Of a stretch of 64,000 bases of DNA, positions 27,389 through 31,056 are shown piece after piece (position 1 is the stretch's first letter; each line of letters begins with the position of its first letter). This DNA is from Parvularcula marina (GTDB lineage Bacteria > Pseudomonadota > Alphaproteobacteria > Caulobacterales > Parvularculaceae), in assembly GCF_003399445.1 (NCBI RefSeq), contig NZ_QUQO01000001.1:434001-498000 (forward strand), written 5' to 3'. The position numbers and the translations under genes were made by a program. The notes beneath the pieces are model-generated. The model did not search any database. It saw only the letters and a program-made list of their open reading frames with translations, and was not told the DNA's origin.

Positions 27389-27931
27389 ATGAATGTCGAC
27401 AATATCAATCGATGGCTGACGCTCGGCGCAAATGTCGGCGTCGTCATCGGACTGATCGTCCTGATCGTCGAGCTGCGGCAGAATTCGAGTCTGACACGCG
27501 CGGCTATGGAGATCGAGCTCACCGCCGTTCAATCCGACCTCGAATTGCGCATGTCGGCGCCGGACATTTCCGCAGTCTGGATGAAGTCGGTCTACCACCC
27601 CGAAGAACTGACACTGGTCGAGATCAAGATGATGGAAGGCCCGCTGGTCGCCGTGACCCAGCAGATCGATCACTTGATGAACATGCAGGAGGCCGGGCTA
27701 GTTTCGCGTAGCCGGGTCGAAAGTCACGTGCGTAACATCGCCCCGTTCTATTTCGGCAGCCGATTTGCCCAGAACTGGTGGCAGGCGAACGAAGTGGGAT
27801 GGCAGGGAACCGGCCTTTATGAGATTGCCGGCCCGATCATCGACGGCGTCGATGAAAATTTCATGCGAGACTATTTCGACAGCCTGACCATTGCGCCTGA
27901 AACACCGCCCACTGAGGGTACCAGCGAATGA
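27389..27931 (+). CDS. Single-pass membrane protein, first gene of the array, unknown
   Basis: A 180-residue protein with an N-terminal membrane segment (about 8-28: LTLGANVGVVIGLIVLIVEL) and a C-terminal soluble part rich in Met, Gln and Trp. Its anchor resembles, but is not the same as, the anchors of the four following genes. ATG 27389 is preceded by GGGGGG and GAGAT-like bases, a strong ribosome site; an upstream ATG at 27350 is less likely. Its stop overlaps the start of the next gene by 4 nt (ATGA). I do not recognise the family; similar small proteins next to such arrays exist in other alphaproteobacteria to my recollection, without known function. Confidence 0.7.
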   Translation: MNVDNINRWLTLGANVGVVIGLIVLIVELRQNSSLTRAAMEIELTAVQSDLELRMSAPDISAVWMKSVYHPEELTLVEIKMMEGPLVAVTQQIDHLMNMQEAGLVSRSRVESHVRNIAPFYFGSRFAQNWWQANEVGWQGTGLYEIAGPIIDGVDENFMRDYFDSLTIAPETPPTEGTSE

Positions 27932-28701
27932 TCCTCCGCCGCATCACCGAACATGTGAAAGCCCAGAACTGGACCGCCGTCGCGCTCGACTTTGTCATTG
28001 TCGTCGTCGGTGTGTTCATCGGTATTCAGGTCGCGAACTGGAACGATGCGCAGGCCAATGGCCGACTTGGAAGAGATTATAAGGAAAGGCTGATCACCGA
28101 AATTCAGAATGATCTTGCGGCCACACAGGTGCTCTCCGGCTATTATGAGGATGTTCTCGACAGCGTCACGCAGACTAACCGGTTATTATCCGTACCCGAA
28201 GCGGATGCAAATGCGCTGGTCATCGCGGCCTATCGCGCCAGCGAATACACAAGCATCCCTTCCAACCGGGCGACCTGGGACCAGATCGTTTCGTCGGGTC
28301 ATCTCGGCCTCCTGCCGGAATCTGCCTTCGAAAGCGGTCTTCCCGATTACTACAAGTTCCAGGAGGCGAACGAGGCGGTCATCGACCGGCTTCAGGATTC
28401 ACCTTACAGAATCGCCGTCCGGTCGCTCATCCCCCTGCCCGTTCAGCTGTCCATCAGAGAAGGCTGCAGCGACTCCTTGGACGAGCTGAGTATCATCGAA
28501 GGATTCATGACGGAATGTCATCTGGAGGTGGAACCGTCCCTGATTGAAGAGGCCGCCGTAGCGCTGCGGACGTCTCCTGCCATTCGCGATACCCTGCGCT
28601 ATCAATATTCCATGGTCGGCCTGGTACAGATCAATAACGCCGGAAATATCGCCCTTCAGGAGCGGGTGCTGGCGGCCCTGACAGCGGAGGAACGAGACTG
28701 A
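27928..28701 (+). CDS. Array membrane protein A (type RRITEHV), unknown
   Basis: A 257-residue bitopic membrane protein. The positive N-terminus (residues 1-14) predicts N-in. Residues about 17-36 form one membrane helix (ALDFVIVVVGVFIGIQ) holding an Asp at position 21. It ends in IQVANWND, a motif shared by all four proteins. The 220-residue remainder should be periplasmic and helical, with a core motif at 116-142 (SSGHLGLL ... PDYY). It contains two Cys (180, 197), a possible disulfide. It is about 96% identical to gene C at 29471 (11 differences in 257). It is coupled to both neighbours by ATGA and TGATG overlaps. Function unknown. Confidence 0.8.
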   Translation: MILRRITEHVKAQNWTAVALDFVIVVVGVFIGIQVANWNDAQANGRLGRDYKERLITEIQNDLAATQVLSGYYEDVLDSVTQTNRLLSVPEADANALVIAAYRASEYTSIPSNRATWDQIVSSGHLGLLPESAFESGLPDYYKFQEANEAVIDRLQDSPYRIAVRSLIPLPVQLSIREGCSDSLDELSIIEGFMTECHLEVEPSLIEEAAVALRTSPAIRDTLRYQYSMVGLVQINNAGNIALQERVLAALTAEERD

Positions 28702-29474
28702 TGATTCTCCGTAGTCTCATGAAGCACGTTCGCGACCAGAACTGGATCGCCGTCGCGCTCGATTTCATCATTGTCGTCGTCGGTGTGTTCATCGGTATTC
28801 AGGTAAGCAACTGGAATGCCGCGAGGGCGGATCATGTGCGCGAAGCCCGTTATCTTGACAATCTTGCCATCGAAATCAGGGAAGAAATTGTTGCTTTGGA
28901 TGAGATGATGCTAGCTCATCGAATGCGTATAACAGTGATTGAAAAGATGTTGACCGATGCTGGCGGTGCTCCGCCCCGACGGGAGAGCAGAATGTCAGCA
29001 CCCGCAAGCGCGGTTGATCTCACCAGAAAGTTTCCGGCGCCGGAGTTTCTTCCCATCACTGAGGAAGAGCGCGACTATTTTCTGAATTACGGTATCTTTG
29101 CGCGGACATTCAATGAAAAGAACTCCACCTTTCGCACCCTGCAATCGACAGGAGACATCACTATTTTTAAGGATGAGACCCTAGCTCTCGATATTACGGA
29201 TTACTACGCCAATATCGAGGATTTGATTTATTTTGAAGACGGCACTGCGCGCCATGCACGCGATGCGACGACAGCGGTTGCGAGGCGTCACGGCTTCAAT
29301 CCTTTTGGCGAAAACTCATATGATCTTGTCGTCACTGCGCTGCAGGAAGATCCGGAGTTCGCCGCCTCTCTGCGTGGGCTTTACAATGTTTCCATCTTGA
29401 ATCACTTCGTTATCGCCACTGTGAAACGTGAAGCAGAGGAGATTTTGGCCAGGCTTCCGGATGGTGAAGAATGA
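28701..29474 (+). CDS. Array membrane protein B (type RSLMKHV), unknown
   Basis: A 257-residue protein with the same anchor plan as its neighbours: MILRSLMKHVRDQNW, then a membrane helix ending IQVSNWN. The rest is diverged from genes A and C. The core motif is still visible without gaps at 143-169 (FRTLQSTGDITIF ... TDYY). It has no Cys pair. The start overlaps the stop of A by 1 nt (TGATG) and its end overlaps C by 4 nt (ATGA). Its N-terminal 15 residues match gene D nearly exactly while its remainder does not, which points to unit duplication followed by divergence or recombination. Function unknown. Confidence 0.78.
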   Translation: MILRSLMKHVRDQNWIAVALDFIIVVVGVFIGIQVSNWNAARADHVREARYLDNLAIEIREEIVALDEMMLAHRMRITVIEKMLTDAGGAPPRRESRMSAPASAVDLTRKFPAPEFLPITEEERDYFLNYGIFARTFNEKNSTFRTLQSTGDITIFKDETLALDITDYYANIEDLIYFEDGTARHARDATTAVARRHGFNPFGENSYDLVVTALQEDPEFAASLRGLYNVSILNHFVIATVKREAEEILARLPDGEE

Positions 29475-30244
29475 TCCTCCGCCGCATCACCGAACATGTG
29501 AAAGCCCAGAACTGGACCGCCGTCGCGCTCGACTTCGTCATCGTCGTCGTCGGTGTGTTCATCGGTATTCAGGTCGCGAACTGGAACGATGCGCAGGCCA
29601 ATGGCCGACTTGGAAGAGATTATAAGGAAAGGCTGATCAGCGAAATTCAGAATGATCTTGCGGCCACACAGGTGCTCTCCGGCTATTATGAGGATGTTCT
29701 CGACAGCGTCACGCAGACTAACCGGTTATTATCCGTACCCGAAGCGGATGCAAATGCGCTGGTCATCGCGGCCTATCGCGCCAGCGAATACACAAGCATC
29801 CCTTCCAATCGGGCAACCTGGGACCAGATCGTTTCGTCGGGTCATCTCGGCCTCCTGCCGGAATCCGCCATCGAAAGCGGTCTTCCCGATTACTACAAGT
29901 TCCAGGAGTCAAACGAGGCGGTCATCGACCGGCTTCAGGATTCACCTTACAGAATCGCCGTCCGGTCGCTCATCCCCCTGCCCGTTCAGCTGTCCATCAG
30001 AGAAGGCTGCAGCGACTCCTTGGACGAGCTGAGTATCAGCCAGGGGTTCATGACGGAATGTCATCTGGAGGTGGAGCCGTCCCTGCTCGAAGAGGCCGCC
30101 GAAGCGCTGCGGACGTCTCCTGCCATTCGAGAAACCGTGCGTTATCAATATTCCATGGTCGGCCTGGTACAGATCAATAACGCCGGAAATATCGTCCTTC
30201 AGGAGCGGGTGCTGGCGGGCCTGACGGCGGAGGAACGAGACTGA
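29471..30244 (+). CDS. Array membrane protein C, near-copy of A
   Basis: A 257-residue near-duplicate of gene A. I count 11 differences: T57S, F134I, A147S, then I190S, E191Q, I206L, V211E, D221E, L223V, A242V and A250G. Three fall in the first 189 residues and eight in the last 68, so the 5' part has been homogenised more recently. Anchor helix, NWND motif, two Cys and the core motif are all conserved, so both copies look functional. It overlaps B by 4 nt and D by 1 nt. Confidence 0.8.
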   Translation: MILRRITEHVKAQNWTAVALDFVIVVVGVFIGIQVANWNDAQANGRLGRDYKERLISEIQNDLAATQVLSGYYEDVLDSVTQTNRLLSVPEADANALVIAAYRASEYTSIPSNRATWDQIVSSGHLGLLPESAIESGLPDYYKFQESNEAVIDRLQDSPYRIAVRSLIPLPVQLSIREGCSDSLDELSISQGFMTECHLEVEPSLLEEAAEALRTSPAIRETVRYQYSMVGLVQINNAGNIVLQERVLAGLTAEERD

Positions 30245-31032
30245 TGATACTCCGAAGTCTTATGAAGCACGTTCGTGACCAGAACTGGACCGCTGTCGGC
30301 CTCGACTTCGTCATTGTCGTCGTCGGGGTGTTCGTCGGAATTCAGGTGTCGAACTGGAATGACCAGCATTTTACAGCTCGCGAAGCGATCGATTCTCGCG
30401 TCCGATTGATCTCTGATCTGCAAAATGACCGGGACGTCCTGGCGGTCCGGCGGAAATTTTACCAGGAGGTCAAGGACGCAGCAAAGCGGATAGAGCATAT
30501 TCTTGAGGCAGACTTTCCAGAAACGACCGAGGCCCAATGGCAACTCATCCGCGACACGGAAAATGCTGGTCTGATCTGGGCGTTCAAGCCGTCGGCACAG
30601 GTTTACGATGAGCTCCTGAATTCGGGAAAGCTCCGTCTCGTGAGTGATACGGAGATCTTACGTCAGATGCGGGATTACTATCAGGATGCCGCGCTGGAAG
30701 CAGCCATGTCGTTCCAAGTCGACACCCCCTATCGGAACAAGTCGCGCAGGCTGATTAGCGGCCCACTGATCGAATACCAACATCACGCCTGCAATATCGT
30801 TGTCGGCGCTGATCCTAGTAATGTGAAAGTCGAGGAACAGCTCTACTTTCCGCCCTGCCCGGCCCCAGCACTCGAGACAGAAATTCTGGAAACCGCCCAA
30901 CGCATTCACGCAGAGGAAGAATTGCTGGGTGATCTCCGATTAGTGCTCAGACATACCGAAGGCGTTCTTTCATTTATTGAGTATCTGGATGATGAGGCAG
31001 AGACCCTGATCACCAAACTGGAGGCAGACTGA
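30244..31032 (+). CDS. Array membrane protein D (type RSLMKHV), unknown
   Basis: A 262-residue protein with the B-type N-terminus and anchor (WTAVGLDFVIVVVGVFVGIQ), then a different periplasmic part. The core motif aligns at 120-146 (YDELLNSGKLRLV ... RDYY). A Cys pair (about 184 and 200) lies in a His/Pro-rich stretch. The last 50 residues are acidic helix. It is the last intact gene of the array. Its stop overlaps by 1 nt an ATG that begins a fossil copy of the A-type start. The convergent prmC gene ends 16 nt beyond. Confidence 0.78.
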   Translation: MILRSLMKHVRDQNWTAVGLDFVIVVVGVFVGIQVSNWNDQHFTAREAIDSRVRLISDLQNDRDVLAVRRKFYQEVKDAAKRIEHILEADFPETTEAQWQLIRDTENAGLIWAFKPSAQVYDELLNSGKLRLVSDTEILRQMRDYYQDAALEAAMSFQVDTPYRNKSRRLISGPLIEYQHHACNIVVGADPSNVKVEEQLYFPPCPAPALETEILETAQRIHAEEELLGDLRLVLRHTEGVLSFIEYLDDEAETLITKLEAD

Positions 31033-31056
31033 TGCTCCTCCGCCGCGTCAGCGCAC
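31032..31056 (+). pseudogene. Fossil 5' end of a further A-type array gene
   Basis: ATGCTCCTCCGCCGCGTCAG matches the start of genes A and C (ATGATCCTCCGCCGCATCAC) with about 4 mismatches over 25 nt and encodes MLLRRVSA against MILRRITE. It sits exactly where the alternation A-B-A-B predicts the next A. Similarity stops at the prmC stop codon (31048-31050). The reading frame closes after 35 codons, so I treat it as a remnant and not a gene. Confidence 0.6.

Follow-up and report, generated by a model that had tools for sequence, protein, structure and literature searches.

Mosaic tandem families of surface proteins or lipoproteins, for example the staphylococcal lpl clusters, have conserved 5' ends, variable bodies and unequal crossing-over. 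Homogeneous polyimmunity loci consist of tandem, same-strand, tightly spaced genes that vary in number and type between relatives; NTF2 is listed as an immunity fold, and most known immunity proteins are cytoplasmic (PMC3482391). A five-gene array of Parvularcula marina (genes O, A, B, C and D) is compared here with these systems and with integron cassettes. It lies in a 64,000-nucleotide stretch of contig NZ_QUQO01000001.1 (positions 434,001 to 498,000; hereafter the window, with coordinates counted from its first nucleotide), and four of its genes encode members of Pfam family DUF6090 (PF19578), which has no assigned function. An initial annotation made from the letters of the window likewise described related small proteins with the NWN anchor as having no assigned role, and a literature search found no paper naming DUF6090; neither the organisation of the arrays, nor the distinct histories of anchors and bodies, nor the broken 5' ends, all described below, turned up in the descriptions of DUF6090 or in the literature searched. 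The locus is probably a mosaic array, one instance of a widespread, unstudied type, in which a shared 5' coding segment would supply the homology by which entire coupled genes are gained, lost and exchanged. It resembles a store of interchangeable genes rather than the plan for a single fixed complex.

The five genes are on the forward strand between a phosphoglycerate-mutase-like gene and prmC. Gene O (27389..27931; 180 amino acids), the first of the array, encodes an N-terminal hydrophobic helix followed by a helical domain and is not DUF6090; it is followed by A (27928..28701; 257 amino acids), B (28701..29474; 257 amino acids), C (29471..30244) and D (30244..31032; 262 amino acids). Checking upheld these coordinates and the coupling reported in the initial annotation, with junctions in the order ATGA (O/A), TGATG (A/B), ATGA (B/C) and TGATG (C/D). 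The whole-protein gathering score of PF19578 is 23.5 bits; it is passed by A (30.9 bits), B (25.8 bits) and C (31.8 bits), and D (20.7 bits) falls slightly short but matches family profile A2 over its full length at 217.9 bits. By these scores, A–C and the DUF6090-like D are all members of the family, with the same anchor and SG core. Gene A encodes an anchor and an exported helical body, and the body of B has a foreign composition and lacks the cysteine pair found in A. The proteins of A and C are 96% identical, so the array holds three kinds of body, not four, and the 24 nucleotide differences between the two genes, including 11 replacement codons, mark C as a recent copy of A. Promoter, terminator and Rfam scans over the array gave nothing above expectation. 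A fifth DUF6090 gene of this genome stands alone elsewhere (G000:C1:2390995-2391246; L120:6513-7265).

The DNA of A–D is similar for about 120 nucleotides from the start codon and then abruptly unrelated, except in the A/C copy. Comparison of the four genes places this shared 5' coding segment at 27928..28047 in A, 28701..28820 in B, 29471..29590 in C and 30244..30363 in D, all on the forward strand, and the anchor ending in IQV(A/S)NWN that had been noticed earlier is indeed common to all four proteins. The exported parts share a 27-residue segment, also located as first described, at residues 116-142 of A (28273..28353, forward strand, TWDQIVSSGHLGLLPESAFESGLPDYY), 143-169 of B (29127..29207, forward), 116-142 of C (29816..29896, forward) and 120-146 of D (30601..30681, forward). 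In shuffling tests alone, the pairs A-B (p 0.055) and B-D (p 0.048) are marginal. Conservation over 277 relatives (central G 91%, preceding E 69%, L 63%, S 55%, YY 53% and 43%) identifies it as a genuine family signature rather than a chance resemblance. The initial annotation's name for this core, SG...DYY, holds for the glycine but not for the D of its ending, which is found in 14% of the 277 relatives.

Scanning 84,980 species genomes revealed 214 encoding places, from which 74 loci with 346 family reading frames were fetched; gene calls in these relatives are simple open-frame choices, and many of the loci come from metagenome bins. Coupled arrays are the rule among them and the core is a family signature, so neither outcome that the initial annotation had named as fatal to the complex idea (absence of the core beyond chance matches, or homologues that always occur singly) was observed. 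Successive genes overlap by 4 bases in 144 of 233 pairs and by 1 base in 46 (190/233 together). Arrays range from single genes to a run of 15, roughly half of the family runs at these loci consisting of one or two genes, and only 3 of 46 types of neighbouring body clusters recur. Most hosts belong to the Parvularculaceae, the Hyphomonadaceae or marine Gammaproteobacteria, and distribution is patchy: the Pfam family occurs in 28 of 62 Parvularculaceae genomes and in one other of nine in the genus of the window. It is rare in even samples that include the window's genome, with 6 of 240 genomes of the class and 13 of 398 of the phylum. Genes around the arrays are core genes, such as gatB and genes of PLP-dependent enzymes, and not defence islands. 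Carriage by phage or plasmid was rejected, as no relatives were found in the IMG/VR, phage and plasmid collections. Marinicaulis-type genomes (L047, L064, L066, L067, L094 and L114) have arrays of differing size at or near one chromosomal site, adjoining a cysteine-synthase-like gene and in several also gatB, which suits a comparison of array turnover.

Separate comparison of the two parts of these genes shows that anchor and exported body differ in history. For 263 genes that have a genome-mate, the nearest anchor by DNA was found in the same genome in 117 cases and the nearest body in 11.5, the expectation from shuffled genome labels being about 3% for both. Of the 170 genes whose body has a clear relative elsewhere, 143 carry an anchor that is nearer to a paralogue of their own genome, and the 5' segments are homogenised within genomes. 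In a scan along the DNA, the same-genome share was 0.48 at residues 1-24, 0.37 at 13-36, 0.18 at 25-48 and 0.06 at 37-60 and was flat thereafter, the conserved core included, the step thus falling within the first 40 codons. The rate of identical codons at identical residues is 0.61 within loci and 0.47 between loci for anchors, versus 0.38 and 0.35 for bodies, and is higher in the anchor in 36 of 36 loci; shared codon usage is therefore not the cause. The loci were gathered through anchor patterns, which would raise anchor similarity between genomes, so any bias from collection opposes this result. The bodies of one genome resemble one another no more than expected by chance, and purifying selection acts on the bodies (median dN/dS 0.24). 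The arrays have in common with lpl-type families the conserved front end, the variable body, the tandem arrangement and, by inference, unequal crossing-over. In contrast to those families, DUF6090 bodies are unrelated within a genome beyond chance and shared across bacterial classes, and translational coupling is nearly universal in the arrays.

Individual genes show the same separation (dS values being Nei-Gojobori estimates). The bodies of L096:9237 and L117:10774 are 84% identical and their anchors 55%, with dS of 0.40 for the body and 1.10 for the anchor. In the window, comparison of B with its relative on L047, a contig of 5619 bases that matches G042:C55, gives a dS of 0.28 for the body and 0.79 for the anchor, so that the 5' segment of B resembles that of its body orthologue less than the bodies resemble each other. 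For prfA, the dS between genome G042 and the window is 1.35, which indicates from the substitution rates that the B body moved horizontally between genera. The GC3 of B is 0.51 in the body and 0.74 in the anchor, and that of neighbouring core genes is 0.67-0.76.

At the end of many arrays, a further start codon is coupled to the final stop, and a short piece of anchor DNA then gives way to unrelated sequence. In the window, such a remnant (ATGCTCCTCCGCCGCG; 31032..31056, forward strand), the broken 5' segment of a lost sixth gene, directly follows D, to whose stop it is coupled by TGATG, and merges into the 3' end of prmC. It matches a relative's anchor at 23 of 25 positions, the first 16 nucleotides being identical and the remainder overlapping prmC; when 250 anchor 5' ends were compared with both strands of the 64 kb, only the four gene starts and this remnant agreed with any of them at 22/25 positions or more. 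Truncated follow-on starts break at 17-61 bp in 27 of 30 cases and at or beyond 116 bp in 3, where an even spread of breaks over a 760-bp gene would place about 8% within the first 61 bp; such confinement could mark a real boundary or result from selection against incomplete membrane peptides. Remnants also follow unrelated genes that adjoin arrays, including related alpha/beta hydrolases in two classes (L059 and L084) and a SnoaL-like gene (L046). The search for a common right-end sequence after arrays found only REP-like or local repeats, common to few loci. One Hyphomonadaceae bin has tandem non-coding units of 212-233 bp beside full genes, starting with the same stretch of about 57 nucleotides. 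Non-coding units at L172 (G301:C23), L059:6776-8276, L075 and L081 consist of the first 57 or so nucleotides of a DUF6090 gene followed by REP-like hairpins, and at 12 or 13 of the 23 sites listed for the L172 genome no membrane helix follows.

In the proposed mosaic array, a module would comprise the 5' coding segment of about 120 nucleotides (start codon, short cytoplasmic tail and membrane helix), a body encoding a periplasmic helical domain, and a stop overlapping the start of the next module. Homologous recombination between copies of the 5' segment, including unequal crossing-over and gene conversion, is the inferred agent of exchange, and would insert, delete, duplicate and swap modules. 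As every body is flanked on both sides by a copy of this segment, recombination would move whole modules and keep frame, anchor and coupling intact; bodies would come from other genomes, and front ends would be kept uniform locally. Several considerations weigh against this proposal. The evidence is all comparative, no rearrangement having been observed as it happens, and the many loci that come from metagenome bins may include misassembled or mis-binned sequence. No measurable linkage ties the 5' segment to the body on either side of it (own 0.76, next 0.73; 7 pairs in favour of travel with the upstream body and 8 opposed), a result that fits more than one crossover path, and the 61-bp limit on breaks could stem from selection against half-made membrane peptides. 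Its functional part has neither a solved relative nor a fold match on which to draw.

A broader version of the mosaic array, which we consider rather unlikely, would be an integrase-free form of gene capture in which the first 60-120 nucleotides or so act both as anchor code and as a mobile boundary for adding any reading frame to a translationally coupled array, with unrelated enzymes, an antitoxin and non-coding units among the cargo. Cargo genes in or beside arrays include those for proteins of SnoaL/NTF2-like and cupin type, some of them fused to O-type proteins, as well as for M20 peptidases, hydrolases and ParD antitoxins.

The AlphaFold2 model of A (pLDDT 94.4, pTM 0.84) has a single 73-residue helix (residues 15-87) that leaves the membrane and continues in the exported part; beyond it lie a helical head, which bears a small hairpin, and a return helix of 36 residues. 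The hairpin cysteines C180 and C197 are invariant across the close set of 73 sequences and present in 44% of the wider family, as would suit an exported disulfide; the head of A is predicted to be exported and disulfide-bonded. Searches at E<=0.001 gave no match for A or O in the PDB and none for A among viral structure models. Gene O has no significant Pfam or NCBIfam match and no overlap with the DUF6090 family hits. Its model (pLDDT 89) has a long membrane-to-domain helix and a helical bundle, and relatives of O are coupled or adjacent to DUF6090 arrays at more than 12 other loci. Some of them carry C-terminal NTF2/DUF4440/SnoaL or cupin fusions (L086:13308-14252, L096:5318-6241, L104:14899-15912 and L088:947-1921), which hint that the second half of O may face small-molecule-type partners. 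The best fold matches of O are to TolQ/ExbB and are insignificant, and residues 13-95 of D (anchor and stalk) have a weak PADLOC match to ZorA, of the MotA/ExbB/TolQ type, at 17.9 bits; both resemblances are probably generic similarities of membrane stalks.

As to function, A–D can tentatively be regarded as a repertoire of independently acting, inner-membrane-anchored, periplasm-facing binding proteins, for example protection factors. Like the genes of polyimmunity loci, the members seem able to stand in for one another rather than to complement one another, which favours a repertoire over a single complex. The resemblance to those loci extends to tandem genes in one orientation with tiny spacing and one dominant family, number and type varying between close relatives, and genes that are apparently equivalent (PMC3482391). 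A true homogeneous polyimmunity-like stockpile, with each body neutralising, in the periplasm, a different incoming antibacterial toxin or step of phage entry, would also suit the patchy occurrence of the family, the combination of recombination and purifying selection in the bodies, and the NTF2-fold companions. It is somewhat unlikely all the same, since no toxin or secretion-system gene recurs beside the arrays (no toxin family is among the 25 commonest families listed from 57 cargo and 99 flank proteins) and defence matches in the flanks are isolated. With 0 of 73 family members matched by PADLOC models, a known defence system was rejected for the family. Positive selection on the bodies was rejected as well, their dN/dS not being elevated, and the median given above thus bears no arms-race signature in pairwise averages. 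DUF6090 members further differ from known immunity proteins, most of which are cytoplasmic (PMC3482391), in being membrane-anchored and exported, and their arrays differ in the shared, locally homogenised 5' coding segment.

The initial annotation had proposed instead a fixed hetero-oligomeric envelope complex whose subunits, encoded by the coupled genes, would come together by way of their common anchor and core. Co-translated paralogues with a common anchor and variable exported parts are supported by the present analysis, and strict translational coupling, the shared anchor and core, the recurrence of the A-B adjacency in L047 and that of O relatives beside arrays would all accord with such a complex. 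The complex itself now appears unlikely: a stoichiometric assembly should keep its set of subunits, and the arrays do not, their size (1-15 genes over the 74 loci), content and order varying almost freely with few recurring adjacency types, about half of the family runs being single genes or pairs, and bodies within a genome being unrelated beyond chance.

DUF6090 arrays share with integron cassettes a single orientation, exchangeable genes, a broken site at the end and mixed cargo that includes a toxin-antitoxin-type gene. If the 5' coding segment were the recombination site of an integron-like, site-specific cassette system, this would account for the broken segments that end arrays and follow unrelated cargo (the hydrolases of L059 and L084 and the SnoaL-like gene of L046), for the common start of about 57 nucleotides in the non-coding units of 212-233 bp, and for a ParD-type antitoxin as cargo. 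However, DUF6090 genes overlap by 4 or 1 bases and leave no intergenic attC-like space, the shared segment being the coding 5' end, and the breaks are scattered from 17 to 61 bp rather than placed at one base. None of 10 array-bearing genomes has an integron integrase over the TIGR02249 cut-off, only generic tyrosine recombinases being found, and, unlike attC, the segment does not accompany the upstream body. Identity with integrons was rejected on the integrase result, and an integron-like mechanism is very unlikely.

Old tandem duplication with vertical inheritance, in which gene conversion homogenises the anchor only and bodies are not exchanged horizontally, would likewise give local anchors with old bodies, and A and C are a clear local duplication. 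As a general explanation it is very improbable, because the B body is far closer to its counterpart in another genus (dS 0.28) than prfA is (dS 1.35), the bodies of B and D have foreign GC3 whereas their anchors are host-like, and relatives of the same genus are mostly without the family. That the uniform 5' ends reflect nucleotide-level selection for translational restart rather than recombination is extremely improbable, for although all genes restart at overlapping stops and codon identity between loci is also higher in anchors (0.47 versus 0.35), the uniformity is genome-specific (0.61 within, 0.47 between) and reaches through the membrane helix, and replacement of whole anchors beside conserved bodies needs recombination.

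Several further genes were noted in or beside the arrays of relatives. At L106:9328-10004 a ParD-type antitoxin, together with a 114-residue frame at the position of its toxin, is ATGA-coupled into a DUF6090 array, and related ParD genes adjoin the arrays of L108 and L118. A second small coupled family (MEFEAFRVIAQIAAGLAGFVGILL) occurs within arrays at L046:4246-4740 and L055:6794-7270 and is 89% identical between the two genomes. The SprT-like protein (a weak match) at L064:7314-8180 has an N terminus, MIPWRLTEHVKVQYW, that resembles a fused DUF6090 front end. A phage-type integrase-like gene directly follows a nine-gene array at L085:17055-18278, the sole such case seen at an array end.

If the mosaic array is correct, it cautions against interpreting such operons as multi-subunit complexes. 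DUF6090, at present filed as 'unknown function', would then be the backbone of exchangeable arrays in marine Alpha- and Gammaproteobacteria. These would form a counterpart to polyimmunity loci and integrons, with the anchor sequence of the protein itself as the exchange handle, and dozens of unexplained operons would become one testable system.

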